From assembly GCF_014205225.1 (NCBI RefSeq), contig NZ_JACHNB010000001.1, positions 2,709,501-2,773,500 of the forward strand: a DNA stretch of 64,000 bases. The letters are read 5' to 3'. This document shows, piece by piece, positions 8,556 to 64,000 of the stretch. Below the pieces are notes generated by a model, which saw only the letters and a program-made list of their open reading frames with translations, made no database searches and had not been told where the DNA came from. How positions within the stretch are numbered: the first letter of the stretch is position 1; each line of letters begins with the position of its first letter. A program made the translations under genes and the position numbers. This stretch comes from Actinoplanes octamycinicus. GTDB taxonomy: Bacteria > Actinomycetota > Actinomycetes > Mycobacteriales > Micromonosporaceae.

Positions 8556-8556
8556 C

Positions 8557-10589: not shown

Positions 10590-10666
10590 CCGACGGCTCA
10601 TCCGGGGGCCAGCAGTAAGGCCGTTCCCATCGCCCGGGCGGCACCAGCTACGGTGTTCGCAGGCCC

Positions 10667-10749
10667 GCCCGGGTGGTGGAATGGCAGACACGGCCGCCTT
10701 AAAAGCGGCTGCCCTAACAGGCGTGCGGGTTCGAGACCCGCCCCGGGCA
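10667..10749 (+). tRNA. tRNA-Leu (anticodon TAA)
   Basis: The 7-bp acceptor stem GCCCGGG/CCCGGGC is complete, with discriminator A at 10749. The anticodon stem GCCGC/GCGGC encloses the 7-base loop CTTAAAA, giving anticodon TAA at 10700-10702. There is a long variable arm (class II, as expected for Leu) and a T arm GCGGG-TTCGAGA-CCCGC. The 3' CCA is not encoded (CAG follows). TAA reads UUA codons, which are rare in high-GC actinomycetes; the gene is the counterpart of bldA in Streptomyces. Confidence 0.95.
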
Positions 10750-10760
10750 CAGATAACGAA

Positions 10761-10798
10761 GCGGTCGCGACGGTTCGTCGCGGCCGCTCCCGTTTTTG
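10761..10798 (+). terminator. Intrinsic terminator after tRNA-Leu
   Basis: A 12-bp stem (GCGGTCGCGACG / CGTCGCGGCCGC, one G-U pair) with a GTT loop, followed by CTCCCGTTTTTG. It has a real T5 run, unlike the other terminators in the window. Confidence 0.85.
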
Positions 10799-10963
10799 GG
10801 GGCGTTTGTGCTCGCCCGGTTACCACTGGGCGGCCCGGGGTACCCATGACACCTGTCATTTTCAGCCTGCTCACAGCTCCCGGGAGCGGCGGTCCGGCCG
10901 CACAGCGCTTACCCTGGAGCGACAGGCATTGTTGTGCCGAACCCTCAAGGGAGGCTGGACACA

Positions 10964-11845: not shown

Positions 11846-11871
11846 CGGTTCGTCACCAGTCGCCAATCCGC

Positions 11872-11995
11872 AACGCCCGGCCCGACTCCCCGCGGACCGG
11901 GCGTTGCCCCGATCCACTCGACGCCCGGCCCGCCTCGCGGTCCGGGCGTCGCCCCGATCCACCTGACGCCCGGCCCGCCTCGCGGTCCGGGCGTC
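11872..11995 (+). repeat. Three tandem terminator-like hairpins
   Basis: Three units begin at 11873, 11921 and 11966 (spacing 48 and 45). Each forms an inverted repeat around CGCCCGG...CCGGGCG. Unit 1 closes with CAA/TTG pairs, units 2 and 3 with GA/TC pairs, so the stem is kept by compensatory changes. Units 2 and 3 also have an inner CCGC-CTC-GCGG hairpin. The position, 27 bases after the Bax-inhibitor gene, fits a reinforced terminator. Confidence 0.7.
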
Positions 11996-12639
11996 GCCCT
12001 TTCCCGGCGTCCGCCCGTCATCTTCTGGGCCGGTTGCCGCCCGTCGTCCGGGCCCGGCTCTGCCCTACGCGTCAGCCCCCGGCCCTCGCCCTTGTGCGTC
12101 GCCGCGGCTGCCGCATTTCTCATCGCCCCTCTTTTCTCATTCGCTGTCGATTGCTGTTCTGCGCCGATGAGGCTTTGTTCTCCGATTAGGCACCGGATAT
12201 CCGTTCCCCTTTCGTTTCGCGCGGATCGCCTTTACTGCTGGTTGTCCCTTTGGTCACCCGCTGCGACATTCGGTTCGCTGACGGTTCCGCATTCCGCTTC
12301 GGTCACGGTGCGCTTTCCGACACCACTTTCCGGTACGACCGGAGCCGGGCTCCCTCCCTCGACTGTCTGGCGGGCTGGCCGTGAGGGGGTGTGTCCCGGC
12401 GGCCGAAACACCCCTGGAAGCCAGCCGGGGCCGTGACCGCGCCGCGTGCCGGAGTTCCCAGCGGACTTCGCGTCGTGGGGCGGGCTCCCGGCCGGTGGGG
12501 AGGGCGGATCGTGCGGGCTGGTAGTGAGTGGGCGGGCCGCCGACCCCACTACCGGCGCCACCGCCCGTGGGGTGCGGGGCTGCTCAGGGGCGAAGCGGCG
12601 GAGTGATCGGCGGCGACGGGTGGCGGGTAGGCTCGCCGG
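11996..12639. other. Gene-poor region, pyrimidine-rich
   Basis: No protein-like reading frame is supported here. The plus strand is rich in C and T, and 12,100-12,330 is noticeably more AT-rich than the surroundings. The promoter of the next gene is at the right end: TAGGCT (12627-12632) lies seven bases before ATG 12640, a layout typical of a leaderless actinobacterial mRNA. Confidence 0.5.
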
Positions 12640-12945
12640 ATGTCCGAGTTCGCGACTTCTGTCGAGCGGCTGCTGGCCCAGGTGCGGCACTGGGAGGAGA
12701 CGCGCTGGGCGGCCGGCGCCGGTGCCGGGACCCGGGGGGATCTGGTCTTCGCGCTGGTGCAGCGGTTGGCCGACCTGAGCGCCGAGGCGGAAGGGCGGGC
12801 GTCCCGGCCCGTCCCGCGGGCCCACGACCTGGTGCTGCCCGACCAGCTGCGCGTCATCGCCGACGACATCATCGCCGCCGACCCCACCGTCGACCTGCTG
12901 ACCAGGGCCACAGCCGCAGTCGACGAGGTCCGCCAAACCCTCTGA
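12640..12945 (+). CDS. Small conserved-looking hypothetical protein
   Basis: 101 residues, not recognised. It is acidic, mostly alpha-helical by composition, with no membrane segment. It starts SEFATSVERLLAQVRHWEE and contains DLVFALVQRLADLSAEAEG, LPDQLRVIADDIIAADP and a helical end (LLTRATAAVDEVRQTL). Regular codon use with G/C in third positions and a TAGGCT -10 box seven bases before the ATG support a real, probably leaderless gene. It is convergent with the acetyltransferase at 13372, with a tandem repeat between them. Confidence 0.7.
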   Translation: MSEFATSVERLLAQVRHWEETRWAAGAGAGTRGDLVFALVQRLADLSAEAEGRASRPVPRAHDLVLPDQLRVIADDIIAADPTVDLLTRATAAVDEVRQTL

Positions 12946-13047
12946 CGCCCCGCCGGCCGCGCTCACGTGTGGCCGCCCCGCCGCTGATCACCATGAAGCC
13001 GTGCCCGAGCGCGCCAGGCGGCCCGGTGCGCCTGCGGCCCCTGCGGG

Positions 13048-13365
13048 GTTCAAGTGGCCGAGCGGGCCAGCGGGTCCGGTGTGCCTGCGGCCTCTGCTGG
13101 GTTCAAGTGGCCGAGCATGCCAGCGGGTTCGGTGCGCCTTTGGCCTCTGCTGGGTTCAAGTGGCGGAGCGTGCTAGGGGGTTCGGTGTGCCTGCGGCCTC
13201 TGCTGGGTTCAAGTGGCCGCGCGGGCCTGTGGGGCCGGTGTGCCTGTGGTCTGCGCTGGGTTCAGGTGGCCGAGCGTGCCAGAGGGTCCCGTGTGCCTGT
13301 GGTCTCTGCTGGGTTCAGGTGGCCGGGCGGACCAGTGGGGCCGGTGTGCCTCCGGACCGGCCGCT
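13048..13365. repeat. 53-bp tandem repeat, six copies
   Basis: GTTCAAGTGG or GTTCAGGTGG recurs at 13048, 13101, 13154, 13207, 13260 and 13313, always exactly 53 bases apart. Between these are GCC(G/A)GCG-type, GGTGTGCCTG and CTCTGCTGGG blocks. A degenerate partial copy precedes it from about 12,995. The period is not a multiple of three, so reading frames through it change from copy to copy and it is not coding. It fills the gap between two convergent genes. Confidence 0.92.
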
Positions 13366-49746: not shown

Positions 49747-50898
49747 ATGACTGATTTCGATGTCTACCGGCTGCCGGAGGATCACGAGACGATCCGCGCC
49801 GCCGTGCGCGAGGTCTGTGACGCCCGGGTGGCTCCGAACGCCGCCGAGGCCGACGAGACCGGGGAGTTCCCCAAGGCGTCGTACGACGCCCTGCGGTCCT
49901 CCGACTTCCACGCCCCGCACATCCCGGTCGAGTACGGCGGCGCCGGCGCGGACGCCCTGGCCACCGCGATCGTGATCGAGGAGGTGGCCCGCGCCTGCGC
50001 CTCGTCCTCGCTGATCCCGGCGGTCAACAAGCTCGGCTCGCTGCCGCTGATCCTGTCCGCCTCCGAGGAGCTCAAGCAGAAGTACCTGTCGAAGGTGGCG
50101 GCCGGCGAGGGGATGTTCTCCTACTGCCTGTCCGAGCCGGAGGCCGGTTCGGACGCCGCGTCGATGACCACCCGCGCGGTGCGCGACGGCGACTTCTGGG
50201 TGCTCAACGGCGTGAAGCGGTGGATCACCAACGCCGGGGTGTCGGAGTTCTACACGGTCTTCGCGGTCACCGACCCGGCCGCCCGGTCCCGGGGCATCTC
50301 GGCGTTCGTGGTGGAGAAGTCCGACCCGGGTGTCAGCTTCGGCGCGCCGGAGAAGAAGCTGGGCATCAAGGGCTCGCCGACCCGCGAGGTGTACTTCGAC
50401 AACGTGCGGATCCCGGCGGACCGGATGATCGGCGCCGAGGGCACCGGTTTCGCGACCGCGATGAAGACCCTGGACCACACCCGGGTCACGATCGCGGCGC
50501 AGGCGATCGGCATCGCGCAGGGCGCGCTGGACTTCGCTCTGTCGTACGCCAAGGAGCGCAAGCAGTTCGGCAAGTCGATCGCCGAGTTCCAGGGTCTGCA
50601 GTTCATGCTCGCCGACATGGGCATGAAGCTGGAGGCGGCCCGGCAGCTGACCTACGCCGCGGCCGGCAAGAGCGAGCGCGGCGACGCCGACCTGACCTAC
50701 TTCGGCGCGGCGGCCAAGTGCTTCGCCTCGGACGTGGCCATGGAGATCACCACCGACGCGGTGCAGATCCTCGGCGGCTACGGCTACACCCGCGACTACC
50801 CGGTCGAGCGGATGATGCGGGACGCCAAGATCACCCAGATCTACGAAGGGACCAATCAGGTCCAGCGCATCGTGATGGCACGGCAGCTCCTCAAGTAA
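49747..50898 (+). CDS. Acyl-CoA dehydrogenase
   Basis: 383 residues from ATG 49747, preceded by GAGGGAAGG. FAD/substrate-binding motifs are CLSEPEAGSDAASMTTRA and VLNGVKRWITNAGVS. The C-terminal domain contains DHTRVTIAAQAIGIAQGAL and KERKQFGKSIAEFQ; the catalytic glutamate lies in QIYEGTNQVQRIVMARQ. It catalyses alpha,beta-dehydrogenation of an acyl-CoA; chain-length preference is not visible. It is the last clearly chromosomal gene before the island. A candidate -10 (TAACAT) lies at 49702. Confidence 0.95.
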   Translation: MTDFDVYRLPEDHETIRAAVREVCDARVAPNAAEADETGEFPKASYDALRSSDFHAPHIPVEYGGAGADALATAIVIEEVARACASSSLIPAVNKLGSLPLILSASEELKQKYLSKVAAGEGMFSYCLSEPEAGSDAASMTTRAVRDGDFWVLNGVKRWITNAGVSEFYTVFAVTDPAARSRGISAFVVEKSDPGVSFGAPEKKLGIKGSPTREVYFDNVRIPADRMIGAEGTGFATAMKTLDHTRVTIAAQAIGIAQGALDFALSYAKERKQFGKSIAEFQGLQFMLADMGMKLEAARQLTYAAAGKSERGDADLTYFGAAAKCFASDVAMEITTDAVQILGGYGYTRDYPVERMMRDAKITQIYEGTNQVQRIVMARQLLK

Positions 50899-50903
50899 GC
50901 CTG

Positions 50904-50925
50904 TGGCCTGTACTTCCGCAGGCCA
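50904..50925 (+). terminator. Hairpin after acyl-CoA dehydrogenase gene
   Basis: TGGCCTG / CAGGCCA (7 bp) with an eight-base loop, six bases past the stop at 50898. No T run. It also marks the left border of the accessory region; 50926-51098 shows only short GTGTGAC-like repeats. Confidence 0.5.
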
Positions 50926-51098
50926 GCGTCATGATAGACCCAGGTCTTGGGTGCTGTCGCCGTCCGCTGGGAGTTGGTCCGCCAGCACCCGGCGGCACGG
51001 CGCGGCACAGCCTGTGTGACGGGCTGTGTGACAGGTGATGTGACGCGGCGCGGTGTGCCGCGTGGCTGCCGTTAGGCGCTCCGGTGGCAGCGGGCGAC

Positions 51099-51980
51099 TC
51101 ACGCCATAGTCGGTCGCAAGGGCAGCGCAGGCAAGGTTGATCTGGGATACCTCTGCGCTAGTACCGCCTTGCCCTCGCGCCGGAGTGGGTGGTGCCATTC
51201 CAGGGCATCCCACGCGTTCGCGATGCGCATCACCTCGTACACGGGAATCAGCCTGGGCGGGATGTGGTCACCGCAGGTGCACGTGGATTCGATGATGTGG
51301 GCCAGGAGATCGAAGGCCGTGGCGGTCCTCAGGTTGCATGAGAAGTCGAAGTGCAAACCGTCGAGCATGTAGCCGACGATCTCCCCGATCGAAGCCTCCG
51401 ACTGATCCCAATCCCGCCATGCGATGGAGGAGTGCTCGCCGCTCGACTCGATCTCTGCCGCATCACATCTCCGTTCGGGTTGAAGGTTGAGATCGGCTGC
51501 GAGGACCTCCTCGGCCAAGATCTCGACCTCTGCGGCGTTCAGGCTGACGGGCTTACCCGCGGCCCAGCGTAGGTAGATGCGTGCGACAACATGCCGGATG
51601 TCCAACTTCGCAGGGGCAGTGCTCGCGGTTTGGCAGGGAATGCAGAGCCAACCGGGATCGCCATAGCGGGCACACGTCCGGTCGATGCGTCCGATCGTCT
51701 CCCCGATCATGATCGCGCTCCGGCAAACCGGACACATGGAGTTGTAGCGCGCGACTATGCGCCGGCCCGGCTTGTTCGAAGTGGTCGCGCGGACCGTCTT
51801 GTTAACGTTCGGTGGCTTTCCGCCACTTGGAGGTAGCTCTCCTCCAGCAAGATCTGTCCGGCCGGGTGACGGCAGGATTTCAACGATCTCCACGCACATG
51901 GCATCTCCCATCGCGACGCGGCGACGCGCCGTAGCGCCCTCGCCGTAAGCCAAGAGGTGGGCGGCGTCGGCCTTGAGCAT
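51099..51980 (-). CDS. Cys-rich hypothetical protein with zinc-knuckle-like motif
   Basis: 293 residues from ATG 51980. A longer open frame reaches 52166, but it would cross the inverted repeat at 52015-52038 and overlap the gene upstream. It has a C-x2-C ... C-x2-C pattern (Cys83/Cys86 in SMCPVCRSA and Cys113/Cys116 in PGWLCIPC) around MIGETIGRIDR, a small treble-clef or zinc-ribbon-like unit. A further CTCGDH lies near 245. The C-terminal half is helical and acidic. No named family or enzyme motif is recognised. It is the last minus-strand gene behind the RM operon; its role is unknown. Confidence 0.65.
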   Translation of the reverse strand: MLKADAAHLLAYGEGATARRRVAMGDAMCVEIVEILPSPGRTDLAGGELPPSGGKPPNVNKTVRATTSNKPGRRIVARYNSMCPVCRSAIMIGETIGRIDRTCARYGDPGWLCIPCQTASTAPAKLDIRHVVARIYLRWAAGKPVSLNAAEVEILAEEVLAADLNLQPERRCDAAEIESSGEHSSIAWRDWDQSEASIGEIVGYMLDGLHFDFSCNLRTATAFDLLAHIIESTCTCGDHIPPRLIPVYEVMRIANAWDALEWHHPLRREGKAVLAQRYPRSTLPALPLRPTMA

Positions 51981-52014
51981 TGCCGCAACGTTCGCCGGGA
52001 TGCACCTTAAACCG

Positions 52015-52038
52015 CATAGTGCGCTATTGTGCACTATG
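52015..52038 (-). promoter_or_regulatory. Inverted-repeat operator candidate
   Basis: CATAGTGC-N8-GCACTATG, a perfect 8+8 bp repeat with an 8-base spacer, so the half-site centres are 16 bases apart, as for a dimeric helix-turn-helix repressor. On the minus strand a -10-like TAAGGT (52004-52009) follows, 23 bases before ATG 51980. The repeat would cover the -35 and spacer region and could block that promoter. Confidence 0.6.
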
Positions 52039-52119
52039 TGCTCGCGTGTCGTGGTTCTCTTCATCGAGAGGACGAATACGGCGGCCACAAAATGGCCGCC
52101 GGTGCTGCTGTCGGTTGCT

Positions 52120-53958
52120 TCAGTTGGTCTGCTTGGTGGGAAGATGCCGCCCGATGTATCCCACATAGATCAGGCCGCCGCCAGCGGTGTCATCATGGCA
52201 GTGCACTCGAGGGCTGGTCATCCCCGATTGCGTGATCTTGAAGTGCGCTCCCATGAAAACCCGCCCAGACGGATGAACCGACTCAGGCACCGTCAGTGTC
52301 CGGGCCTTTCGGAACGCGGTGTTGTTCTTGACGTCTTCGCTTTCGTCGTAGGCGTACCGGTTGACCGACCAGACGTGGCAGCCATCCGGGGTGTGCTGAA
52401 GGAACCCATGCAGGTCGCGCCCCCAGCGGCCGTCAGCCTTGGCCATCCCGTAGTCGTTCAGCGCAAGTAGGGCATCCCACGTCTTCGACGCCCACGAGCC
52501 GAGCGTGTCGATGTCATCCAAATCGATGGCGCAGTCCGGATCGCCGGTGAAGACCACGTACTTCAATCTGGGCAGCCAACGCAGCAGCTCGCCGAAGCTG
52601 CCAGGCCGGGATACGTGCTCTTCAGCCGGCTGCTCCGTCCATGCGATGTCGCCATGCCCGGTCTCTGCGAGCCGGCGTCGCAATGCGCGGACGGTCTCCT
52701 CGGAGCGGGTAAGGCCGTCGAGCGCGTCGCGGTTCTCTAACTGCTCGTCCTCCAGCCTGCGGACGAGAGCTGCGTTGACTGCTGTGACCTCGTCCAAGTC
52801 CGTCTGCAGCTGCGAGAGCCGCGAAGCGACATCAGCCTTGGCCTCCAGAGATTCCTTGCCGATACCAATCCAGTCGGCCATCTCGTCGATCGCGTCGACG
52901 TTGATCTCCGGCAACTCGAGCTTGAGTCGCAGATACTCCAGCAACAGGGCGGAGCGATCGTCAGGAGCGGCCTGCTCGGTCTGCTGAGCCTCAACCCGTG
53001 TCTGGATCGTTGCAGGTGCCTCAAGCGAGGCGATTCGGCGCGTGCCGTCACCCAATCGATGAACGAGTAGTTCGTCGGCAAGCCGCTCCAGCATCCGGTG
53101 AACCCGAGTCGCTGGCGTGGGTAAGGGCTGTTCAAGGGCCTGCGCGTGAGCACTCGATGCGAGAATGCGAGCTAAGGAGTTGTGCTCCCGGTCATCGATG
53201 ATCCGTTCTGTGCTCAGTACCCGGTGCCGCAGTGCGTCGACCATGTCATGTGGCTTGACGTCAGGCCGGAAGGACCGCAGCGTGCCAGCAGGCACGGCAT
53301 GCACCGGTCCGAGTCGTTCGTTGATCAGCCGAGTCGCTTCGCCGTCGAGTACATAGCAGGCGGCCACGCCGTGGGTGAACCGAGTGAGCTTGGCGATCAG
53401 GTCGGTCCAAGGAACGAGCGGAAGCGTGTCGTCGTTGCCCGCGACGAATACGAAGCCGCGTCGGTCCCGGTCGAGTAGCGCCTGGTATACCTCGTTGACC
53501 TCGCTGCCGCGGATGATGACTGGCCGAGTCGTCAGCCGGACCGAACCATCCCATGCATCAACGACGTCCAGCAGCGGCGCGATGAACCGAGGCGTTCCGG
53601 CTCGTGTACGGCGGGCGTGGCCAGTCGCAGCGTCCTGGTCCGGCGCCTCCACGTCGATCCACGCCCACGCTGTCCTGTCGCGGCTGCTCGGCGTGTGCAT
53701 GGTCACCTGAGTGACCCACTGCTCCTCGGACTTACTCTCTACGATCCTGACGCGTTCCGACTCAGAACCGTCTTGGCCGGCGTGGTGAAGGAGTAAGCCA
53801 CGAACACCGTCGCCGATGGTTACCCAGCGGTCAGCACGCAATGCCGCCGGATCCCAACCCTTCCAGTCGGTCATCCACCGATCGAGTTGTTCACGAGTCA
53901 GCGTGTGGAGATTGTCGCGATGATCGTGGGCAGCGAAGTACGACCGGAAACCGAGCAT
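52120..53958 (-). CDS. Uncharacterised 612-residue protein linked to type I RM operon
   Basis: 612 residues from ATG 53958, with GGAAGG five bases upstream. No named family recognised. Three parts are visible. Residues 1-310 are mixed alpha/beta with conserved-looking stretches: TAWAWIDVEAPDQDAATGHA, RRGFVFVAGNDDTLPLVPW, FTHGVAACYVLDGEATRLIN and GTLRSFRPDVKPHDMVDALR. Residues 365-430 are a coiled coil (LEAKADVASRLSQLQTDLDE). Residues 465-612 form a C-terminal domain with WDALLALNDYGMAKADGRWG, FMGAHFKITQS and HCHDDTAGGGLIYVGYIGRH. No nuclease, helicase or methyltransferase motif is seen. Its place 138 bases after hsdR on the same strand suggests a defence function; this is inference. Confidence 0.85.
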   Translation of the reverse strand: MLGFRSYFAAHDHRDNLHTLTREQLDRWMTDWKGWDPAALRADRWVTIGDGVRGLLLHHAGQDGSESERVRIVESKSEEQWVTQVTMHTPSSRDRTAWAWIDVEAPDQDAATGHARRTRAGTPRFIAPLLDVVDAWDGSVRLTTRPVIIRGSEVNEVYQALLDRDRRGFVFVAGNDDTLPLVPWTDLIAKLTRFTHGVAACYVLDGEATRLINERLGPVHAVPAGTLRSFRPDVKPHDMVDALRHRVLSTERIIDDREHNSLARILASSAHAQALEQPLPTPATRVHRMLERLADELLVHRLGDGTRRIASLEAPATIQTRVEAQQTEQAAPDDRSALLLEYLRLKLELPEINVDAIDEMADWIGIGKESLEAKADVASRLSQLQTDLDEVTAVNAALVRRLEDEQLENRDALDGLTRSEETVRALRRRLAETGHGDIAWTEQPAEEHVSRPGSFGELLRWLPRLKYVVFTGDPDCAIDLDDIDTLGSWASKTWDALLALNDYGMAKADGRWGRDLHGFLQHTPDGCHVWSVNRYAYDESEDVKNNTAFRKARTLTVPESVHPSGRVFMGAHFKITQSGMTSPRVHCHDDTAGGGLIYVGYIGRHLPTKQTN

Positions 53959-54096
53959 CGTGCCTTCCGAACGAGGAGGGGGTGCGGACCATCCAGAGGG
54001 AGTCCGTGCACCCTACGCCTGCAGGTGCCTCCGGATCGTCACCGATTCGGTGCTTCTGGGTTGCCAATCGGCTACATAAGACATCTGCCGTTGCCT

Positions 54097-57000
54097 TTAC
54101 GAGGCCTCGGCTGCCACGGCAGTCTCGCGGATCCGGTCGAGTACGGCGACCAACGAGAACACGTCAGCATCGGGGAAGATGTCACCGGGACCACCTGGAG
54201 CGATGGCAGTGAACGGAGCCTCGTAGAGATCCGCCGCATTGACAATGCCGCGCTTGACGATGACTTCGGTCAACAGGTTTAAGAAGTGCAGCTGACTGGC
54301 GGTGAAGTTGCTGCTGGCCTGGAAGGCATCGAGCGCGGCGCTCGCCGCTTCACGTTCGAGCCCGGTCAGAGATCTCAGGAAGAGCCCGAGACCCTCGTGG
54401 GCTTCGGCGGCGGCGGCCACATCCTCCTCGGTGCCGAACCCGGAGGAGACGAACACCTCCTTGAGAGCTTCCAGATCAAGTGTCGTGATCTGCTTGTTCC
54501 GCCGCAGCTTTTGCACGGCCAGATTGTCCTCGTGGCCCCGCAGGTAGATCCGTACCTTGGCCTGGAAGCGGCTCTGGTCGGTTCCAACGACACTGCCGGG
54601 AAGGTCAACCTCGCCGAGCTCCCCGAGTTGATCCTCGAAGTCGGTGTAGACCACCGCCCGCCGAGTTCGTTCGATCAGCCTTACAAGGCCGCGGATTCTG
54701 CGACGCATCGTCTCCAGCATTGGCAGCGTGACGTCGACCCACCACTCTTCGCCAGCCAGTTCCTCGAGAAGCTGCTGCTGTGCGGCAACGGCCGGAATGG
54801 TCGTCTGATTCAGCAGCGCATTGGCGATGTCCTGCACCTGGGCGTGCAACGCATCGAAGCCCGGTTCACCGAGTACGGCCAGCTGGAGGCGAAGAGTTAG
54901 CAGGTCGAACCGCTTGGCCTCCTCACCGTTGTCGTCGTCGCCGTGGAACCCGGACGGCAACGGGGCAAGGTGCTCTACGACCTCCTGATGCCTCTCCGGC
55001 GTGACCCGGCCCCAGTGAGACCACTCGCCGTAGTACTCAACTTGGCGCCGGTGCGGCCTAACAAGAACGTTTTCAGGGTCCATGCTGCGTACTTCGACGT
55101 TCAGGTGCCGGGCGTTGAGCCATCGGATGTCAAGGTTGGAGACCGGTCCGCCAGTCTGCTCCTCGGAGGGCTGCCCGATGTCCTCAAGGATTTTGTCGAG
55201 AGCCAGTACGAGGTCGGCCCGGCGGCTGAAGATTCGTTGCTTGAGCGACGGTGTCACCTTGCCCTCGGCCGTGGCCATGCCAGCCTTGAAGAACTCGACG
55301 TTCTGGCACAGGTCGAAGACGAGGAAGCCCTGCTTGTCCCGCCCTGGCCCGAAGAGATCCGGTCGAAGGCGTGTGCCGCGGCCGATCATCTGCCAGAACT
55401 TGGTTTTGGACCGAATGAGCTTGAAGAAGACCAGGTTGACAACCTCGGGCACGTCAATGCCGGTATCCAGCATGTCGACCGAGATCGCGATGTGCGGATC
55501 CTTCTCGGGCTGCGTGAAGTTGTCGATCACGCTCTGCGCGAAGGCCGTCGAGTGCGTAATGACCTGCGCGAAGTTTCCGGCATGTTCCGGGAAGGCAGCG
55601 TCGAATCGCTGTCGAATGAACTCGGCGTGCGCCTGGTTCTTGGCGAAGACGATCGTCTTGCCGAGCCGGTCACCGCCAGCCACCTTGGCGCCGTGTGTCA
55701 TCAGGGTCGCCAGCGCCTTATCAACCGTGTCGGCGTTGAAGAGGAACTTGTTCAGTTCCTCCGAGCTGATCTCGGTGGGAACGGTTCCGTCTTCATCCCA
55801 CTCGAGAGCGTCCCACTCCTCCTTCTCCTCCTCCGAGAGATCGTCGTACCGGATGCCCTGTCGCTGGAACTTCAGCGGTACGTCGACCGTGCGCGGCGCG
55901 ACGAGGTAGCCCTCGGAGACCGCCTCCTCCAGGCTGTAGGAGTCGGTCGGCACCCCGCTCTCGAGATGGAAGAGGCGGTACGTGTTTCGGTCGATCTCAT
56001 CCTTCGGCGTCGCGGTCAGGCCAACCAACAGCGCGTCGAAGTAGTCGAAGATTGCCTTGTACTTCTGGTAGATCGACCGGTGAGCCTCATCCACGATGAT
56101 CAGGTCGAAATAGCCGGGTCCGAAACGGCGCCGGTCCCCGTCCATCTCGTTGAGCAAGCCCATCATCGTCGGGTAGGTGCTGACCACGACCCGGGCGTCC
56201 GGGTTCTTCTCCGTGAGCAGGTTGACCGCCGGCATACCGGGCAGGTGGGCCTTGAACGCGTTCACCGCCTGGGTGACTAGTGCCTTGCGGTCGGCCAGGA
56301 ACAGTACGCGCTTGACCCAGTTCGCCCGAGCCAGCTGATCGACCAGCGCGATCACTGTGCGGGTCTTGCCTGAGCCGGTCGCCATCACGAGCAGGGCGTG
56401 CCGCTGTTTCCTGGCGAACGTGTCGCCGACCTGGCGGATCGCGCGGGATTGATAGTGCCGGTTAACGATGTCGTCGTTGATCGTCACCCCGGCCAGAGCG
56501 TGCTTGCTGGCTCGGCGCTGGATCAGCAAGCGCAGCTCATCCTTGGTGTAGAAGCCCTGTACCGGCCGCGGCGGATAGGCCAGGTCGTCCCAGATGAAGG
56601 TCTCGTAGCCGTTGGTGTAGAAGATGACCGGCCGCTGCCCGAACATCTGCTCTAGCGCGTCCGCGTAGCACTTGGCCTGCTGCTGCCCTCGCTGCGCGTC
56701 GTAGGTGGCACGCTTGGCCTCGACCACGGCTAGGGGTTTGCCGTCGTCGTCCCACAGCACGTAGTCGACCTTGCCCTTGCCGGTCTTGCTTGCCGACGCG
56801 GGCAACCCTTCAACCGGATACTCCCGGTCCTGTGGGTTCTGGAGCGTCCAGCCAGCTTCGCGCAGCAGCAAATCGATGATGAATGTGCGAGTGTCCGCCT
56901 CGTTGTAGTCATGCTCATCAGGGCGCGACTCATTGGCCTGTTTCGCAGCCTTGATCTGCTCGCGCAATCTCGCGAGTTCGGCGTCGAGGTCCTGGCTGCG

Positions 57001-57534
57001 GCGACGCTCCTCGGCCAACTCCGCCTGTTGTTTGGCGAACTCTTCGGCCTGCTTCTGAAGCTCAGCGAGTTGCTGCTGACGACGCTGCGCCGGCCGCGGG
57101 ATAAGGCTCGTGTCGAACTGCAGGCCGGCGTCCGGCACGTTGTCCGGGTTGCGGGCGTAGCGCCGAGCGATCCAATACGTCACCTGGAACAGTTCGCCGA
57201 CCACCCGGACGGAGTCGATCTCCGGAACCTTGGTAGTGCGGTGAACCGCTCGGTTCCCGACCCGGCGGATCAGGTCCATCTTCGCGCGAATCGCCGGGCC
57301 GACGAGCGTGAGTAGCGTCGGCTCGGCGATCATCGCTGAAAGGTCATCACGGTAGGGTGTACGCAGCTTCTCATCGGCCTGGTAGAGCCAGATGAGCCCG
57401 AGTTCCAAGCAGCGTCGAGCGTAGAAGCAGGAAGCGCGTGGGTCGGCCACAGCGATGTGCTCCGCTCTTGCGGCTTCATCGAACAGCTCTGGCCACTCCG
57501 ACTCAAGAAACCCGAAGTTTCCCACCCGCGCCAC
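54097..57534 (-). CDS. hsdR: Type I restriction enzyme R subunit with N-terminal DUF4145
   Basis: The motor/nuclease subunit. 1145 residues from GTG 57534. Residues 1-125 are a DUF4145-like helical domain (ARRCLELGLIWLYQADEKL). Residues 150-205 are a charged coiled coil. HSDR_N nuclease at 215-330 has Asp257 and Glu272-x-Lys274 (KVDYVLWDDDGKPLAVVEAK). The SF2 helicase has Walker A ATGSGKT (385-391), DEAH 482-485, VGLTATP and late motifs SVDMLDTGIDVPEVVNLVFF and QMIGRGTRLRPDL. The C-terminus matches EcoEI-type R subunits. It starts 37 bases after hsdS. The R-subunit organisation is of the EcoEI type. Confidence 0.95.
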   Translation of the reverse strand: MARVGNFGFLESEWPELFDEAARAEHIAVADPRASCFYARRCLELGLIWLYQADEKLRTPYRDDLSAMIAEPTLLTLVGPAIRAKMDLIRRVGNRAVHRTTKVPEIDSVRVVGELFQVTYWIARRYARNPDNVPDAGLQFDTSLIPRPAQRRQQQLAELQKQAEEFAKQQAELAEERRRSQDLDAELARLREQIKAAKQANESRPDEHDYNEADTRTFIIDLLLREAGWTLQNPQDREYPVEGLPASASKTGKGKVDYVLWDDDGKPLAVVEAKRATYDAQRGQQQAKCYADALEQMFGQRPVIFYTNGYETFIWDDLAYPPRPVQGFYTKDELRLLIQRRASKHALAGVTINDDIVNRHYQSRAIRQVGDTFARKQRHALLVMATGSGKTRTVIALVDQLARANWVKRVLFLADRKALVTQAVNAFKAHLPGMPAVNLLTEKNPDARVVVSTYPTMMGLLNEMDGDRRRFGPGYFDLIIVDEAHRSIYQKYKAIFDYFDALLVGLTATPKDEIDRNTYRLFHLESGVPTDSYSLEEAVSEGYLVAPRTVDVPLKFQRQGIRYDDLSEEEKEEWDALEWDEDGTVPTEISSEELNKFLFNADTVDKALATLMTHGAKVAGGDRLGKTIVFAKNQAHAEFIRQRFDAAFPEHAGNFAQVITHSTAFAQSVIDNFTQPEKDPHIAISVDMLDTGIDVPEVVNLVFFKLIRSKTKFWQMIGRGTRLRPDLFGPGRDKQGFLVFDLCQNVEFFKAGMATAEGKVTPSLKQRIFSRRADLVLALDKILEDIGQPSEEQTGGPVSNLDIRWLNARHLNVEVRSMDPENVLVRPHRRQVEYYGEWSHWGRVTPERHQEVVEHLAPLPSGFHGDDDNGEEAKRFDLLTLRLQLAVLGEPGFDALHAQVQDIANALLNQTTIPAVAAQQQLLEELAGEEWWVDVTLPMLETMRRRIRGLVRLIERTRRAVVYTDFEDQLGELGEVDLPGSVVGTDQSRFQAKVRIYLRGHEDNLAVQKLRRNKQITTLDLEALKEVFVSSGFGTEEDVAAAAEAHEGLGLFLRSLTGLEREAASAALDAFQASSNFTASQLHFLNLLTEVIVKRGIVNAADLYEAPFTAIAPGGPGDIFPDADVFSLVAVLDRIRETAVAAEAS

Positions 57535-57571
57535 GCTCCCCGGTTCAAGCCGTCAATCCAGTCTTATCACT

Positions 57572-58759
57572 CTACAACTCACCACGAAAGGCTCGGTCAC
57601 GCAATGCTTCGAAGAGAGCCTCAAGCTCAGAGAGTTGTTCCTGCTGGACTTGCCGAACCTCGCTAAGGTGAACGGCGTATCGGCTGAATGCCTCTTGCCG
57701 CTCCAACGGCGGGATTACGATCTCAATCTTCTCGAGAGCTCCCTGGTTCACCTTAAACGTTCCGTTGGTCGTCCGCGCAGACACTTCGATCTGGCGACGA
57801 ACCAGTCGGGAATGCCATATCCTCTGCATAAAACTTGGGAGCAGTTTGTCTGGCCTGACGCGAGCGGCAATCGCGGTGTCGGGGAAAGTTGTATCGGGCA
57901 TGCTTTCCGAAGGGAAGGCTCCCCGTCCTACTAGATCAAGATTCCCATTTCCGCGGCAGATTAGGAAATCTCGAGCATCCACGAGATGATTCTTCGATGG
58001 GGTTTCGTTAAACTTTGCCGCCTTGGTAGATCCTTGATTGAAAGCGCGACCTGTGATGGCAGAAAGTGTGAGAACCCTACCTTCGATCATTCCTGTGCTC
58101 GAAGGCGAAAGTCCGTTCCGCAGCGGTATCTGCAGAACTGTTGCTAGATTCTCCAGTGGCCACTCGCCCGGATTTCGCTCCGGGTTGCCAAAATATTCTA
58201 CAAATGCGGACTCCTCCAAAGAATCAAGGGTTTGAATCGTCGACCGGCGAGCGGCGCGTAGCGCATCGGCCTCGTCTAGTATCTCGGCGATTCGCTGCTG
58301 TTCCTTCAATGCTGGTAGTGGGATTTTGAGGTGCTTCAACTTGTCGACCGGGAAGTTGTCGGCAGTGGTCGCTCGAACCCACCCGAGAATCTCGGGCGAT
58401 TTATATTTTATGTAGTGAGCAAGGTAGTCGGAGTTGATGTCTGGAGAGCAGATCAAAGCCTTCATATCTTGATTTATCGCCACCGGAACTTTAGCGATCC
58501 CTACCGGTAGCGTGTGCTTTAGAACCCCAGAGCGAACCACGACGAGCACGGCGCCTTCAGGAGCCATGCGGGCAGCGCTATTTTGCAGGCCTTGCTCTGT
58601 GATCCGGACCTGGGCATCGGTGATGTCCCAGCGTTTCATATCCTTCGGGGTTACCCAAGGAATGGAGCCGCCGTAGTAATCGGCATTTTGGCGGCTCGGT
58701 GTGCCTCCGCCGATGAAGTTGACCAGTTGACCGATGGGAACCTTCGAGGAGGCGTTCAC
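57572..58759 (-). CDS. hsdS: Type I restriction-modification specificity subunit
   Basis: Chooses the DNA target for methylation and cleavage. 395 residues, with two target-recognition domains (about 5-160 and 195-360). Conserved spacer helices are KEQQRIAEILDEADALRAAR and RQVQQEQLSELEALFEALRD. The TRD openings (IGQLVNFIGGGTPSRQNADY, EWPLENLATVLQIPLRNG) follow the EcoEI-like arrangement. GTG 58759 overlaps the hsdM stop by four bases. The DNA of this gene is clearly more AT-rich than the chromosome to the left, consistent with transfer. Confidence 0.95.
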   Translation of the reverse strand: MNASSKVPIGQLVNFIGGGTPSRQNADYYGGSIPWVTPKDMKRWDITDAQVRITEQGLQNSAARMAPEGAVLVVVRSGVLKHTLPVGIAKVPVAINQDMKALICSPDINSDYLAHYIKYKSPEILGWVRATTADNFPVDKLKHLKIPLPALKEQQRIAEILDEADALRAARRSTIQTLDSLEESAFVEYFGNPERNPGEWPLENLATVLQIPLRNGLSPSSTGMIEGRVLTLSAITGRAFNQGSTKAAKFNETPSKNHLVDARDFLICRGNGNLDLVGRGAFPSESMPDTTFPDTAIAARVRPDKLLPSFMQRIWHSRLVRRQIEVSARTTNGTFKVNQGALEKIEIVIPPLERQEAFSRYAVHLSEVRQVQQEQLSELEALFEALRDRAFRGEL

Positions 58760-60294
58760 GAGAGCATTCCCTTGAGGTTGTTAAGGCGATGTTGGATGCT
58801 CGCCTCAAGGCGTTCTAGTTCGTCAAATACTTCTGAGGTTGGGCGATGCTCGATCTCCTGCTCAACCGTCTCCTTGTAGCGATTGAAGCTGAGGTCGTAG
58901 CCTTGTGTGGCAATCTCCTCACGGGAAACGCAAAAACTGTAATCTGTGCGGGAGCGATCCCGTTCCGTGCCGTTGCGGCGCGCCCACCGTGCTAGAACGT
59001 CGGGTAGGTTATTTTTCGTTTTTTCTCCGTCTAGAAGGGGTTCGGTTGGCCTGCACCCGAGCTTCGCCTCGGCTAGAAGCGGGGTGCGCTTGTCATCGAG
59101 GCTAAATCCGTCGGCAGTTACTTCGTAGAACCAGACTTCATCAGTCCCGCCGCTGTCGGTGCGAACAAAGGAGAGGATAGCAGTGGATACCCCAGCGTAA
59201 GGCTTAAATACGCCGCTAGGGAGCTTTACTACCGATTCAAGTTTGTGCTCTTCGACCAGCATGCGGCGCACGTCTCTGTGTGCCTTTGTTGACCCGAAAA
59301 GTACCCCATCGGGCACGATTACGGCGGCACGACCCCCAGGTTTGAGCAGGCGCAAAAAAAGTGCTAAGAAGAGTAGTTCAGTCTTTTTTGTCTTAACGAT
59401 CTGTTGAAGGTCCTTGGCGGTAGCTTCGTAGTCAAGACTGCCAGCGAAGGGTGGATTCGCTAGGATCATGGTGTACTTGCCGGCGTCGCTAGACGCACTC
59501 TCTGCGAGGGAATCGCGATAGCGGATGTCTGGTTGCTCAACCTCGTGCAACAGCATATTCATGCTTGCGATCCGCAACATGGTGCGATCGAAGTCGAAAC
59601 CATGGAACATGCTGCTGTTGAAGTGACTTCGTTGTTCAACGTCGAGTAGGGCGTCCCGATGGGTGCGACTAACATACTGCGCGCTGGCAACGAGAAAACC
59701 AGCAGTACCGCAGGCGGGGTCGCAGATCTCGTCACCTGGTCCGGGCGCCATCATCTCTACAATCAGCTCGATGATGTGCCGTGGCGTCCGAAACTGACCG
59801 TTCTGGCCCGCTGTGGCGATCTTGCCGAGCATGTACTCATAGAGGTCGCCTTTGGTATCACGCTCGCTTAACGGGAGCCCGCCGATCATGTCGACGACCT
59901 TTGCAAGCAGTGTCGAGGTCGGGATGGTGAACCGGGCGTCGCGCATGTGGAGCGAGTAGGTTGACTCGTCGCCGCCGAGCTGGCGCAGCCACGGAAAAAC
60001 CTGATCTTGAACAACTTTCAGCATGTCGTCGGGATGGCCAAGCGCGGTGAACTGTGTCCAGCGCAGGTGGTTGTCCGCTTCGGTATAGATCGGATCTTTA
60101 ATCGGCTGTTTGGTATGAGTGGCGATGCCCTCTTTGCGTCGCTGTAGGTCGTCCAGGCGCTTGATGAACATCAAGTAAGTGATCTGCTCGATCACTTCCA
60201 GCGGGTTGGAGATGCCGCCCGACCAGAAGGCGTCCCATACCCGGTCAATCTTGCTCTTGAGTTCGCCAGTGATCACCCGCCGCAGCCTACTCAC
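58756..60294 (-). CDS. hsdM: Type I restriction-modification methyltransferase subunit
   Basis: The adenine methyltransferase subunit. 512 residues from GTG 60294 (GGGAG six bases upstream). The open frame reaches 60477, but the extra residues are unlike HsdM, and HsdM_N begins here with RVITGELKSKIDRVWDAFWS. AdoMet motif I is CDPACGTAGFLVAS (191-204); the catalytic motif IV is ILANPPFAG (NPPF at 280-283). The tail region EQEIEHRPTSEVFDELERLE is helical. It is the first gene of the hsdM-hsdS-hsdR operon and is divergent from the primase-like gene, with a 170-base promoter region between. Confidence 0.96.
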   Translation of the reverse strand: MSRLRRVITGELKSKIDRVWDAFWSGGISNPLEVIEQITYLMFIKRLDDLQRRKEGIATHTKQPIKDPIYTEADNHLRWTQFTALGHPDDMLKVVQDQVFPWLRQLGGDESTYSLHMRDARFTIPTSTLLAKVVDMIGGLPLSERDTKGDLYEYMLGKIATAGQNGQFRTPRHIIELIVEMMAPGPGDEICDPACGTAGFLVASAQYVSRTHRDALLDVEQRSHFNSSMFHGFDFDRTMLRIASMNMLLHEVEQPDIRYRDSLAESASSDAGKYTMILANPPFAGSLDYEATAKDLQQIVKTKKTELLFLALFLRLLKPGGRAAVIVPDGVLFGSTKAHRDVRRMLVEEHKLESVVKLPSGVFKPYAGVSTAILSFVRTDSGGTDEVWFYEVTADGFSLDDKRTPLLAEAKLGCRPTEPLLDGEKTKNNLPDVLARWARRNGTERDRSRTDYSFCVSREEIATQGYDLSFNRYKETVEQEIEHRPTSEVFDELERLEASIQHRLNNLKGMLS

Positions 60295-60464
60295 GAAGAC
60301 TCCCAGCTCAAGGACTTGGGGTCCGACATCAAGAGAAGTCGAGCTGTCGTGGGACTGGAGGCTTCGTCCGCTGACACATCGACTCGTAACGGCGACCGTG
60401 TGCTGCTCGGCCGCCGGGTCAAAGGCATGCTGACAAGCGGAGGTGCCCCCGGACGGTCCCGTGG

Positions 60465-63400
60465 GTGTCCTCCCCACTCACGTACGACAGTACTCACGCA
60501 GCCGCCGACTTCGCCTACCTGACGGCGGCGAGACGAGATCGCTTTCGCGTCGCCCGTACCTACGGCGGTCGGACCGCCCACGGGTACGCCGATCGGCCTT
60601 GGGCCAGTGCAACGCCTCCGACCGTTCCGTACGCCGTTTACCTAGCGGACGGCGAGTCGTTTCGTACCCTAGCCTTCGATCTTGATGCGAAGCCGGGAGC
60701 GGACCCAGAAGCTGATGCAGCACGGCTGCGCGGCTTGCTCGATGAGGCCGGGATCAAACATGTGGAAGCGATCTCGGGGCCGTCCGGTGGCCGGCACTTG
60801 ATCGCAACGTTCCGTGATCCGTTGCCCGCTGACACGGTCCGGGCGCTGGCCCTTGCCTTGCGCTCTACTCTTGTTCCGTCGCTGGACCCGACGCCGCTGT
60901 GCAACCCTGGGACTGGTGCGATCCGCCCACCAGGATCGCCACACCGGTCAGGGGGTTTCTCGACCTTGATCACACCGGTTGCGGAAGCCCGCACGCTTCT
61001 CTGTGACGGTAACGCGCGATCTGCCTTTGATCATCTTCTTGGGCTTGTCGCTCACCCTTCGACGACGTTAGTCATCAGGGAAGCGGTGGAGCCTCGGCAC
61101 GTACGCCCGCTTCCCGCCCATATCGTCCGCATGGAGCAGTTCGGCGATGAGGACGGCCGGTACGGCGATCGGTCATCTCTCGCCGCCGCCATCTGCCTCA
61201 GCTACGTCAATGCTGGCCGGGATTATAAGGAGTTCGAGGAAGCCGCTGTCGATCCGTCACGTCTCGGTCTCGACCATCTGCGCCGTGAACAGCTCGGTCA
61301 TGGGCATGTTCGTGACCGTTCAGAGGCCCAGATCCGCATGGCCGCTGCTCGGATGTGGCAGCGCCGCATGGTCTACGCCGCGGAGCATCCGCCAGAGCGC
61401 TCCGGCGCCTTCGATGAAGATGTCGAGCGCGAACTCGATGCGCTCTGCGCTGCTATGCGAGCTGTCCCCAGGCGTTGGGGCGGGCTGGGCGGTCCCAGCG
61501 ATCAAGCCGTCCTCTCGGCGATCCTCGAGACGGCGAGGCGGTGCAACAAGATGGTCATAGGCTGTGCCAACCGTACGCTTGCTGAACGGACCGGGAAGTC
61601 TCGGACCGCTGTATGGCGGTCGATCAAGTCGCTGCTGGAGGACGGCTGGCTCGTCATCGATACGCCCAGCGCGGGACCGAACGCTACGACATACCGCCTG
61701 GCGATTCCGGACGCCGTACTGTCGGGCTTGGCAGAGGCGCCGAAGGGCCAGCGCTCTGATGGTGACGTACGCGTGTCACTAGACCCGGCGCCCTGCACAG
61801 ATCACACGCTGCAGACCGGCCTCGCCATCCAGGCGCACGATGCCATGTCGAACAGTAAAGGGCTGGGCCGCCATGCAGCTGTCGTCTTCGCTGCCCTCAC
61901 CAAAGCAGCCGGAACAGCTGTCGACGTGGTCCGCCGTACCGGCCTCGTTCTCCGCACCGTCAACCGTCATTTGAGGCGGCTCGAGAGCTGGGGTCTGGTA
62001 CGTCTCGTAGATGGGACCTGGAGTGCTCGCGACATTCGCCAACTGGACCGTGCCGCACGCGAGCATGGCGCGGTAGGTGCCGCAACGGAGCGGGCTACCG
62101 CGCATCGCCATGAGCGGGAGGCCTATCACTGGTACCTCGCCGACCACGCCGCGCGCCGGGGATGGACGCCAGAGAAGGGCTTATGGCAACCCGGGCACCA
62201 TGCCCTGGTCCATGGCGACCGCCGGCCCGTACCCTCTCTCCCCTTTCCTCGGCGTGATGGTCGTGCTGTCTTTCGGGATGCACTTGACCTTGTCGTCGCT
62301 GGGCAGGGTCCAACACTGGAAAGTGTCGAAGCTGTGCTCAAGGCCTCATCCGCCGGACAGACGGCCGCGCTGCCGTCACCAGCAGCGCGGCGCGCATCGA
62401 TTACTACGTCGAGCCGGTCGAAGAGTGCCCGTCGTCTCGCTGCACCAGCCAGCGACTCCTCGTCGGCGGGCTCACTTGAACCACCGGTTGTGCTGATAGG
62501 CGAAAGCGTCGGGCCCATCGAGCTCCTGCGTGGTGTTGTTGAGCCGGGCGAGGAAGACCGAGCCCTTGGTTCCAGTCTTGGTGCGGAGTGTGTACACCGG
62601 CTCCGAGGCGGGCGCGACGTCTATGCGAGCGACCGTGCGGCTGTCGATGCTGCTGAACCTGACGGTGACGTTAGCCATGGCGCCCTTGCCGAAGTCCAGG
62701 ATCAGCAGCTGGGTGAGCCACTGCTCCCAGGCGTCGGTGTTCTTCTTGGTGAAGACCGTCAGGTCCTCCTCCAGGCCGAGCACGTTCCCGTCGTCCTCGA
62801 CGCCGACGAGCAGCGTCCCTCCGTGGCCGTTCATGAAGCCGGCGACCGTCTTGGTCACCGCCCACTCGATCGCACGGTCCTTCTGACCGGTAGAAAGGTT
62901 CTTCCGGCCGGTCGACTTGAACTCGACGATCTTGCTCTCGCCCGCCATGATCAGCGCCTGGATGCTACGAGCCAGCGCGGCCCCGCCTTGGTACTCGGCG
63001 AACGGGCTACCGTGGTTGTCTCCGCGGTTCACGGGCCGGCCAGTCGCATCCTCAATCTGCCGGATCAGTCGTTCGTAGCGAGCATCGAAGACGGCCCGGA
63101 AGTCGTCCTGCCGCAGAGCGACCGGGTCGATGTCGTGACTGGCGATGATCGCGTCCAAGTCCTGGGAGTCCACTGGCAGGTCGGCTTCGACTGCGGCCAG
63201 GTACTTGCTCGGAGCGTTCGTGCCGATGTATCCCCAGGTCTGTCCGTCGATGGCGGTCTTGTTGACGATGCAGTTGGCGTAGCCGCTGTCGATGCCGTTC
63301 GCCGCGCACCACTTCTGCGGGAAGATGTGGCGGATGTCGATCGAGTCGGCGGCATAGGCCTTGGCGTCGATCGTGTCGCCGGTCCGGAAGTCACGACCGC

Positions 63401-63956
63401 CGCGTTTCATGGCGAGCGCGTAGAGACCTTTGTAGGCGGCACTGTTCCGGGTCCGAAGGCCCAGGAGCCGTTCGGCCTGGAACTGGGACTCGCGGACCGT
63501 CCGCGGTTCTTCACCGTCGTCCTGGATCCAGCTGAGAACGTCTTGCAGGTCGTTGGCGAATCGGGTGTCGGTGGTACCCCCGTACAGCTCTCCGAATACT
63601 CCGCACCAGTACCACTGGCGCAACTTCGCTCGGGGTGCAGGCTTGAAGGCGTCTTCGCCCAAGAGCGTGAGGATTGCGGTCAACGGCACCAACTGCGTGC
63701 TGTACGGAAGGTCGCGGGCACGGAAGATGCGCTCACCATGCAGAAAGCGCACGACGCGCTGAAGCGTGTCGGTGACGGCGTCGGCCCAGCCCTTGTACCC
63801 GCTCAGCGGCAACGACAACATCTCGCGACGCTTGGCGGATACTCCTGGAACGCGGTCACCACGAACCCGCTCCTGCATACGTTCTTCCCAGCGACTTCGG
63901 GTCCAGAGCAGGGTCACGATCTGGAGAAAGGTCGTGGCGTCCAGATCGGCGAGTAG
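60465..63956 (+). CDS. Primase-polymerase-like protein with winged-helix regions; no stop of its own
   Basis: Convincing protein content runs from GTG 60465 to about 62,470 (some 670 residues). The remaining frame to the stop at 63956 is antisense to the HNH-AlbA_2 gene and is not credible as protein. The N-terminal part resembles archaeo-eukaryotic primase (Prim-Pol) domains: hhhDhD motif LAFDLDAKPG (Asp72, Asp74), S-x-H motif SGPSGGRHL (His111), and AIRPPGSPHRSGG. Two winged-helix-like segments follow near 350-400 (LAERTGKSRTAVWRSIKSLL) and 470-515 (RRTGLVLRTVNRHLRRLESW). Such proteins initiate replication of plasmids or integrative elements; here that is inferred. The true 3' end is unresolved and may be lost. 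Confidence 0.6.
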   Translation: MSSPLTYDSTHAAADFAYLTAARRDRFRVARTYGGRTAHGYADRPWASATPPTVPYAVYLADGESFRTLAFDLDAKPGADPEADAARLRGLLDEAGIKHVEAISGPSGGRHLIATFRDPLPADTVRALALALRSTLVPSLDPTPLCNPGTGAIRPPGSPHRSGGFSTLITPVAEARTLLCDGNARSAFDHLLGLVAHPSTTLVIREAVEPRHVRPLPAHIVRMEQFGDEDGRYGDRSSLAAAICLSYVNAGRDYKEFEEAAVDPSRLGLDHLRREQLGHGHVRDRSEAQIRMAAARMWQRRMVYAAEHPPERSGAFDEDVERELDALCAAMRAVPRRWGGLGGPSDQAVLSAILETARRCNKMVIGCANRTLAERTGKSRTAVWRSIKSLLEDGWLVIDTPSAGPNATTYRLAIPDAVLSGLAEAPKGQRSDGDVRVSLDPAPCTDHTLQTGLAIQAHDAMSNSKGLGRHAAVVFAALTKAAGTAVDVVRRTGLVLRTVNRHLRRLESWGLVRLVDGTWSARDIRQLDRAAREHGAVGAATERATAHRHEREAYHWYLADHAARRGWTPEKGLWQPGHHALVHGDRRPVPSLPFPRRDGRAVFRDALDLVVAGQGPTLESVEAVLKASSAGQTAALPSPAARRASITTSSRSKSARRLAAPASDSSSAGSLEPPVVLIGESVGPIELLRGVVEPGEEDRALGSSLGAECVHRLRGGRDVYASDRAAVDAAEPDGDVSHGALAEVQDQQLGEPLLPGVGVLLGEDRQVLLQAEHVPVVLDADEQRPSVAVHEAGDRLGHRPLDRTVLLTGRKVLPAGRLELDDLALARHDQRLDATSQRGPALVLGERATVVVSAVHGPASRILNLPDQSFVASIEDGPEVVLPQSDRVDVVTGDDRVQVLGVHWQVGFDCGQVLARSVRADVSPGLSVDGGLVDDAVGVAAVDAVRRAPLLREDVADVDRVGGIGLGVDRVAGPEVTTAAFHGERVETFVGGTVPGPKAQEPFGLELGLADRPRFFTVVLDPAENVLQVVGESGVGGTPVQLSEYSAPVPLAQLRSGCRLEGVFAQEREDCGQRHQLRAVRKVAGTEDALTMQKAHDALKRVGDGVGPALVPAQRQRQHLATLGGYSWNAVTTNPLLHTFFPATSGPEQGHDLEKGRGVQIGE

Positions 63957-64000
63957 CGGCTCATCGGCCCAGGTCGCCTGCCGCCGCTCCCAGTCGTCCC
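62472..64000 (-). CDS. DUF262/DUF1524-type HNH protein fused to AlbA_2 domain (5' end outside window)
   Basis: The open frame continues past the GTG at 63917 to the window edge with family-like residues (DATTFLQIVTLLWTRSRW), so the gene is truncated by the window; 508 residues are visible. These are the C-terminal half of a DUF262-DUF1524 (GmrSD-like) protein: helical LPYSTQLVPLTAILTLLGE, HNH-like DIRHIFPQKWCAANGI followed by NCIVNKTAI and APSKYLAAVE. After these is an AlbA_2 (Schlafen-like) domain with ESKIVEFKSTGR, EWAVTKTVAGFMNGHGGTLL and VGVEDDGNVLGLEEDL. GmrSD relatives cut glucosylated phage DNA. The AlbA_2 fusion is the odd part. A role in defence is inferred from the neighbouring RM genes. 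Confidence 0.88.
   Translation of the reverse strand, partial: DDWERRQATWADEPLLADLDATTFLQIVTLLWTRSRWEERMQERVRGDRVPGVSAKRREMLSLPLSGYKGWADAVTDTLQRVVRFLHGERIFRARDLPYSTQLVPLTAILTLLGEDAFKPAPRAKLRQWYWCGVFGELYGGTTDTRFANDLQDVLSWIQDDGEEPRTVRESQFQAERLLGLRTRNSAAYKGLYALAMKRGGRDFRTGDTIDAKAYAADSIDIRHIFPQKWCAANGIDSGYANCIVNKTAIDGQTWGYIGTNAPSKYLAAVEADLPVDSQDLDAIIASHDIDPVALRQDDFRAVFDARYERLIRQIEDATGRPVNRGDNHGSPFAEYQGGAALARSIQALIMAGESKIVEFKSTGRKNLSTGQKDRAIEWAVTKTVAGFMNGHGGTLLVGVEDDGNVLGLEEDLTVFTKKNTDAWEQWLTQLLILDFGKGAMANVTVRFSSIDSRTVARIDVAPASEPVYTLRTKTGTKGSVFLARLNNTTQELDGPDAFAYQHNRWFK

Follow-up and report, generated by a model that had tools for sequence, protein, structure and literature searches.

An hsdMSR gene set followed by P612 and P293

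The stretch analysed here, referred to as the window, comprises 64,000 nucleotides (nt) of Actinoplanes octamycinicus DNA (contig NZ_JACHNB010000001.1, positions 2,709,501 to 2,773,500) from a genome that is a single contig of 10.28 Mb, and the subject of this study is a type I restriction-modification (RM) gene set in it, hsdMSR, together with the two genes that follow, designated P612 and P293. All of these genes sit inside an integrative element of about 26 kb. The five open reading frames (ORFs) lie on the minus strand with gaps of -4, 37, 138 and 139 bases, and the ORF list reproduced the order, lengths and gaps given in an initial annotation of this DNA:

58756..60294, minus strand: hsdM, type I DNA methyltransferase subunit, 512 amino acids (aa) from a GTG start, ORF open to 60477
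57572..58759, minus strand: hsdS, type I specificity subunit, 395 aa, with a 4-bp overlap with hsdM
54097..57534, minus strand: hsdR, type I restriction subunit, 1145 aa
52120..53958, minus strand: P612, HEC-07/NsnC-like protein, 612 aa
51099..51980, minus strand: P293, Cys-rich protein with a CxxC...CxxC pattern, 293 aa, ORF open to 52166 (355 aa)

The hsd identities assigned in that annotation agree with the Pfam and PADLOC matches. HsdM matches Pfam N6_Mtase (3e-59) and HsdM_N (3e-16) as well as PADLOC MTase_I (2e-186, the 573-aa form having been scanned), HsdS matches Methylase_S (2.5e-24) in two stretches representing two target domains, and HsdR matches HSDR_N, ResIII and EcoEI_R_C, which gives it a helicase as well as an endonuclease N-domain. 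Judged from sequence, the hsdMSR genes (54097-60294) form a type I RM system of the ordinary kind. Relatives of HsdR with E values of 1e-50 or better were found in 30 of 300 genomes of the host's family, its own counted; their identity to HsdR was 53-82% in 28 of the 29 other genomes and 35% in the remaining one.

The annotation had placed neither of the two extra proteins in a recognised family. This held for both in Pfam and NCBIfam, where P612 gave no noteworthy match and no match, respectively, but not for P612 in PADLOC, where it matched the candidate defence family HEC-07 (4e-13) and NsnC (7e-7). The HEC-07 match is partial, covering only residues 112-277 (the thioredoxin-like region described below), with its best stretch at profile positions 133-299 of 553, and the NsnC match covers the C-terminal end of that profile (251-314 of 316), the same part that is modelled as RelE-like. 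Both profiles are matched by all 42 aligned members of the P612 family. Neither an ATPase nor a HEPN-type domain was matched by P612 in any of the three collections (Pfam, PADLOC and NCBIfam). Weak PADLOC matches of a few family members to LmuB, JetC, PbeC and RmrT were judged to be coiled-coil noise. No description of HEC-07 was found among the papers listed by the literature searches, the term 'HEC' does not occur in PMC8565338 or PMC9252829, and no account of an RM system combined with P612 was found among the papers listed, which came largely from outside the subscription journals.

An AlphaFold2 model and structural alignment predict three parts in P612:

residues ~134-274: thioredoxin-like fold
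residues 281-433: mostly helical, coiled coil
residues 434-612 (52123..52659, minus strand): RelE/YafQ-like C-terminal domain

The CxxC redox motif is missing from the thioredoxin-like domain in 42 of 42 aligned members. The C-terminal domain is closest to RelE/YafQ RNases by structural alignment only, with a middling Z score, and sequence and profile searches gave no match to RelE; to that extent P612 may resemble a known kind of toxin, where the annotation had seen no match to known RM accessories such as toxin pairs. Conserved residues of this domain are E539, R553, H572, R584, H586, D589, Y601 and H605. Among 48 sequences, E539, H572, R584 and H605 are invariant and H586 and D589 are near-invariant, and the candidate catalytic residues were placed against those of YafQ from their order and spacing along the sequence, without superposition of the structures. 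The P612 ORF of the window is intact and retains every conserved residue.

Neighbourhoods of P612 relatives

P612 relatives were present in 52 of the 300 genomes (own counted), and the stretches around them were taken from 39 of the 51 other matching genomes. A species-level genome collection was also scanned with a pair of conserved peptides of the C-terminal part, both derived from actinobacterial sequences, which confined the sampling to that phylum; this gave 68 loci, all actinobacterial by title. The 108 P612-relative loci, less one without a usable ORF and 10 duplicates, gave 97 distinct loci, among which L047 and L048 (both from genome G228) count as two although they resemble halves of one gene on two contigs. 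Type I RM genes were called when HsdR lay within 10 kb, when HsdM lay within 6 kb and HsdS within 10 kb, or when HsdM lay within 1 kb, with model thresholds of 200 bits for HsdM and 100 bits for HsdR and HsdS.

The results showed an SMC gene at 18 of the 97 loci, a DUF4011 helicase gene at eight (at one of them downstream), DUF1156/DUF499 genes at five (three also with DUF262), type I RM genes alone at four, DUF4011 together with RM genes at one, RM together with SMC at one, and none of these at 60, a class that partly reflects too little sequence, flank length differing among the loci. Type I RM genes were thus called at six loci, and at the other 91 they were not found in the stretch examined. 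At two of the six, L041 and L083, a P612-like gene lies directly behind hsdR of an intact hsdMSR set whose proteins are divergent from those of the window; the ORFs overlap at this junction in L041, and the P612-like gene of L083 probably starts 40 bp past the hsdR stop. The other four comprise RM genes on the opposite strand (L051), a lone hsdM (L084), an hsdR fragment only (L109) and an hsdR ahead of a DUF4011 operon (L034). In the last of these, from genome G162, hsdR, the DUF4011 helicase gene, a gene for a 278-aa protein and then P612 follow on one strand, with P612 lying 5.4 kb downstream of hsdR.

Seen from the side of HsdR, the 1.5 kb flanks of the 29 other HsdR loci contained no P612 (the G221 contig stops about 65 bp past hsdR), and none appeared at 13 wide loci. 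P612 as an RM-dedicated accessory was therefore ruled out both ways, from P612 neighbours and from HsdR neighbours: P612 is shared among defence settings. HSDR_N gave 35 matches in 61 family genomes (about 454 Mb by summed listed sizes), and HSDR_N within 10 kb of P612 would be expected by chance at about 0.15 of the 97 loci, compared with five observed, an excess for which clustering of defence genes alone could account.

Some matches were set aside in these counts. HsdM matches of 30-44 bits in ORFs of ~1100-2450 residues at Streptomyces loci were dropped as spurious, an upstream 188-aa ORF in L082 (37 bits to the HsdR model, no Pfam match) was not counted as RM, and neither were L110 and L142, whose HsdM-model matches were too distant.

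At the 18 SMC loci, an SMC gene is followed by a gene for a ~130-aa protein and then by the P612-like gene, and one such SMC protein is LmuB- and mad3-like. In L095, L102, L107, L119 and similar Streptomyces loci, this tandem is accompanied 5-8 kb on, on the other strand, by a helix-turn-helix (HTH)-N6 methylase gene; these tandems look like Lamassu equipped with an effector of RelE type. In L052, L055 and L056, the P612-like gene immediately follows a GmrSD-type gene. In L091 (Amycolatopsis deserti, 7351-11792), a gene combining GmrSD_N, GmrSD_C and a methylguanine-methyltransferase DNA-binding domain lies about 370 bp upstream of the P612-like gene; it was missed by the search model, and the locus stands in the class with none of these genes. 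The L083 locus (Lentzea nigeriaca, 654-13287) holds seven genes, for an HTH-N6 methylase, HsdM, HsdS, an Mrr nuclease, HsdR, the P612-like protein and a protein kinase, a unit that we take to resemble a MADS-type compound system. In genus g12, 14 loci (L053, L054, L057-L068) carry P612-like proteins, mostly of ~620-670 aa, in neighbour-gene clusters common to many genomes, which suggests that the genes keep one position in the chromosome and that this fold possibly also serves outside defence.

Nine plasmid records matched P612, one of them covering 80% or more, and in the three inspected no annotated RM genes were found, the PLSDB annotation being incomplete. Phage records gave no match, and the viral structure library gave nothing at E 0.001.

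In a FastTree phylogeny of 96 rows, P612 of the window was sister to the proteins of DUF4011 operons with 100% support; the tree carries long-branch warnings, and weight is placed mainly on this grouping. The five RM-alone rows need five changes on the tree, no fewer than shuffled labels, and the RM linkage of P612 is therefore independent of descent. The genome of the window holds only distant DUF4011-type genes (at 2.98 and 9.0-9.1 Mb), and a move between the window P612 and a DUF4011-type operon could have gone either way.

A compound unit of hsdMSR and P612 is plausible because the P612 family recurs beside restriction and other defence genes, including those of L041 and L083, and to this extent the compound defence system proposed in the annotation stands. 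The explanation that we consider best, with somewhat better than even confidence, is that hsdMSR of the integrative element carries P612 as an appended, modular abortive effector of RNase type. There are two alternatives. P612 may be an orphan defence gene akin to those in the operons of DUF4011 helicase, 278-aa protein and P612, parked behind hsdR with no functional link to RM, which we regard as rather unlikely. Its sister grouping with the DUF4011 clade, the gene order in G162, the HsdR loci lacking P612, the gap of 138 bp between hsdR and P612 and the failure to match the 278-aa protein in its own genome (in a search without a positive control) all point that way. It is countered by the intact ORF with all conserved residues, by the common strand, by the ordinary folding of the hsdR-P612 intergenic sequence (no unusual structure, z +0.43) and by L041 and L083, where a P612-like gene follows hsdR directly despite the divergent Hsd proteins.

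The second alternative, which appears improbable, is that P612 is not a nuclease and serves as a regulatory or structural adaptor of DNA-targeting machines, joining a dead thioredoxin fold to a non-catalytic RelE-like domain that binds DNA or protein. Its recurrence beside very different ATP-driven DNA machines and the uniform lack of CxxC agree with this, and ParE-type domains of the RelE fold need not be RNases. However, the invariant and near-invariant residues of the C-terminal domain suggest catalysis more than they do a surface for binding.

The integrative element and P293

The boundaries and other features of the element are as follows:

50827..50895, plus strand: left attachment-like direct repeat, formed by the terminal 69 bases (3' end) of the acyl-CoA dehydrogenase gene
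window-equivalent 76882-76950 (in L032), outside the window: right repeat, identical to the left one at 60 of 69 positions
window-equivalent 75271-76635, beside the right repeat: tyrosine integrase gene (Phage_integrase 2e-12)
52079..52101, minus strand: terminator-like hairpin without a T run, 18 nt past the P612 stop
60465..62480, plus strand: divergent winged-HTH gene (HTH_24 9e-11, with a weak primase-polymerase match, LigD_Prim-Pol 0.048)
62472..64000, minus strand, onward to window-equivalent 64808: GmrSD_N and Schlafen AlbA_2 protein, 778 aa (GmrSD_N 1.4e-30, SLFN_AlbA_2 3e-13)

DNA similarity to relatives stops at 50888-50895 at all three wide loci and at 18 of 19 short loci (at 51050 in the remaining one), which coincides with the end of the acyl-CoA dehydrogenase gene. 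The next-best ungapped match to the 69-base repeat within the element is 34/69. The sequence between the two repeats is missing from all three wide relatives' loci, and the site is uninterrupted there. The edge at 50.9 kb seen in the annotation is explained by the repeat of the acyl-CoA dehydrogenase 3' end and the tyrosine integrase, which mark the element boundary, and the AT-richer composition reported beyond it was reproduced (GC 0.620 in 50900-64000 against 0.723 in 1-50800, and 0.632 in the whole inter-repeat stretch). The tyrosine integrase would have inserted the element at the 3' end of the acyl-CoA dehydrogenase gene; this host gene stays intact after insertion, the element providing it with a new 3' end.

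Besides the GmrSD_N and AlbA gene, the Pfam scan of the element showed HTH genes and others. A stop-free ORF on the plus strand (60465-63956) continues past the winged-HTH part, and some 1.5 kb of it lies opposite the GmrSD/AlbA gene in antisense orientation. At window-equivalent ~66-74 kb (L031 17151 to L032 5381), an ORF with RNase III-like and dsRNA-binding matches precedes a gene for a response-regulator protein, after which comes an HTH/resolvase-like ORF of 1151 aa.

P293 adjoins the left repeat. Its description as Cys-rich is borne out by 10 Cys among its 293 residues, and it showed no match in Pfam, NCBIfam or PADLOC, none among viral contigs and nothing credible by sequence in the PDB; in PHROGs there was one weak match (0.002), to a family of unknown function. 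P293 matches were found in four of the 300 genomes. Apart from its own genome these were G143 and G242, both at 51-55%, and a fourth in which the match was marginal. Around the relatives in G143 and G242, no match to P612 or to the Hsd proteins of the window was found within ~20 kb, and for the single-sequence P293 model no match was listed at any of the 108 P612-relative loci. Thus, with clear P293 relatives in only two other genomes of 299 and no type I RM genes called near P612 at 91 of 97 loci, the neighbour tabulation put both proteins mostly away from RM systems in the genomes sampled and overturned the suggestion of two proteins dedicated to them.

Folding of 52070-52119, which holds the hairpin, gave -21 kcal/mol (z -3.17), and one of 200 shuffles was equally stable. 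The hairpin is absent from the consensus terminator scan listing, presumably for want of a T run. The hsdMSR-P612 transcription unit probably ends here. Because its relatives lie away from P612 and Hsd and a strong hairpin stands behind P612, P293 is separate from the RM unit and is probably cargo of the mobile element. A single dedicated system of five genes, as the common strand and short gaps would allow, is very hard to reconcile with this distribution, with the hairpin, with the lack of a listed P293 match at the 108 loci and with the position of P293 beside the repeat, and it was ruled out.

Proposed role of P612 and comparison with known systems

If P612 is an effector appended to hsdMSR, it would act as an RNase, be coupled to the RM system, share a transcript with it and have an abortive outcome. 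HsdMSR would be the first line, cutting phage DNA that lacks the modification. P612 would come into play if restriction were blocked or overwhelmed, or if the RM complex sensed infection. Its N-terminal part and its thioredoxin-like part would then pass the signal on by way of the coiled coil to the C-terminal domain, which would cut RNA, probably mRNA and perhaps on the ribosome, leading to cell arrest or death. A broader proposal, held tentatively and with less than even confidence, is that P612 is a plug-in RNase effector, consisting of a redox-dead thioredoxin-like sensor, a coiled coil and a RelE-like nuclease, that has been recruited repeatedly by unrelated DNA-targeting machines, and that it makes type I RM two-tier, both here and in two or more further genomes, with DNA cut first and translation shut down if restriction fails. 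If so, a RelE-type RNase end would be one structural explanation for HEC-07, which is undescribed in PADLOC, and for the C-terminal part of NsnC, and RM, SMC, helicase-nuclease and GmrSD/DUF499 systems would be seen to exchange one and the same effector.

NsnC is a Menshen protein, and in P612 its profile is matched in the C-terminal stretch only. According to PMC10952713, a gene with DUF262 belongs to Menshen, as does a nuclease predicted to be of OLD type. The DUF262 gene is paralleled in the P612 operons of L052, L055, L056 and L091, whereas P612 of the window differs from the OLD and DUF262 adjacency of Menshen: the machine alongside is HsdMSR, the DUF262 gene is ~8.5 kb off, and the element genes scanned by Pfam gave no OLD match. 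P612 showed no sequence similarity to YafQ/YoeB/RelE-type mRNA interferases or to Cami1, itself of RelE nature, and its RelE-like domain ends a 612-aa protein. It also differs from a type II toxin-antitoxin pair in that no small antitoxin gene lies beside it, its neighbours being hsdR and P293.

Lamassu combines the SMC protein LmuB with an exchangeable effector, LmuA. The SMC neighbour is found at 18 P612-family loci and the kinase-bearing L083 is similar to MADS, but there is no SMC or kinase gene among the scanned genes of the window element. PrrC and RloC are anticodon nucleases tied to type I RM. They differ from P612 in combining an ATPase with an anticodon-nuclease domain, P612 having no ATPase-domain match, but the proposed logic is common, namely that an RNase effector works together with the operon of a type I restriction system, and the RM version of P612 would be a counterpart to the PrrC/RloC idea that uses a different nuclease.

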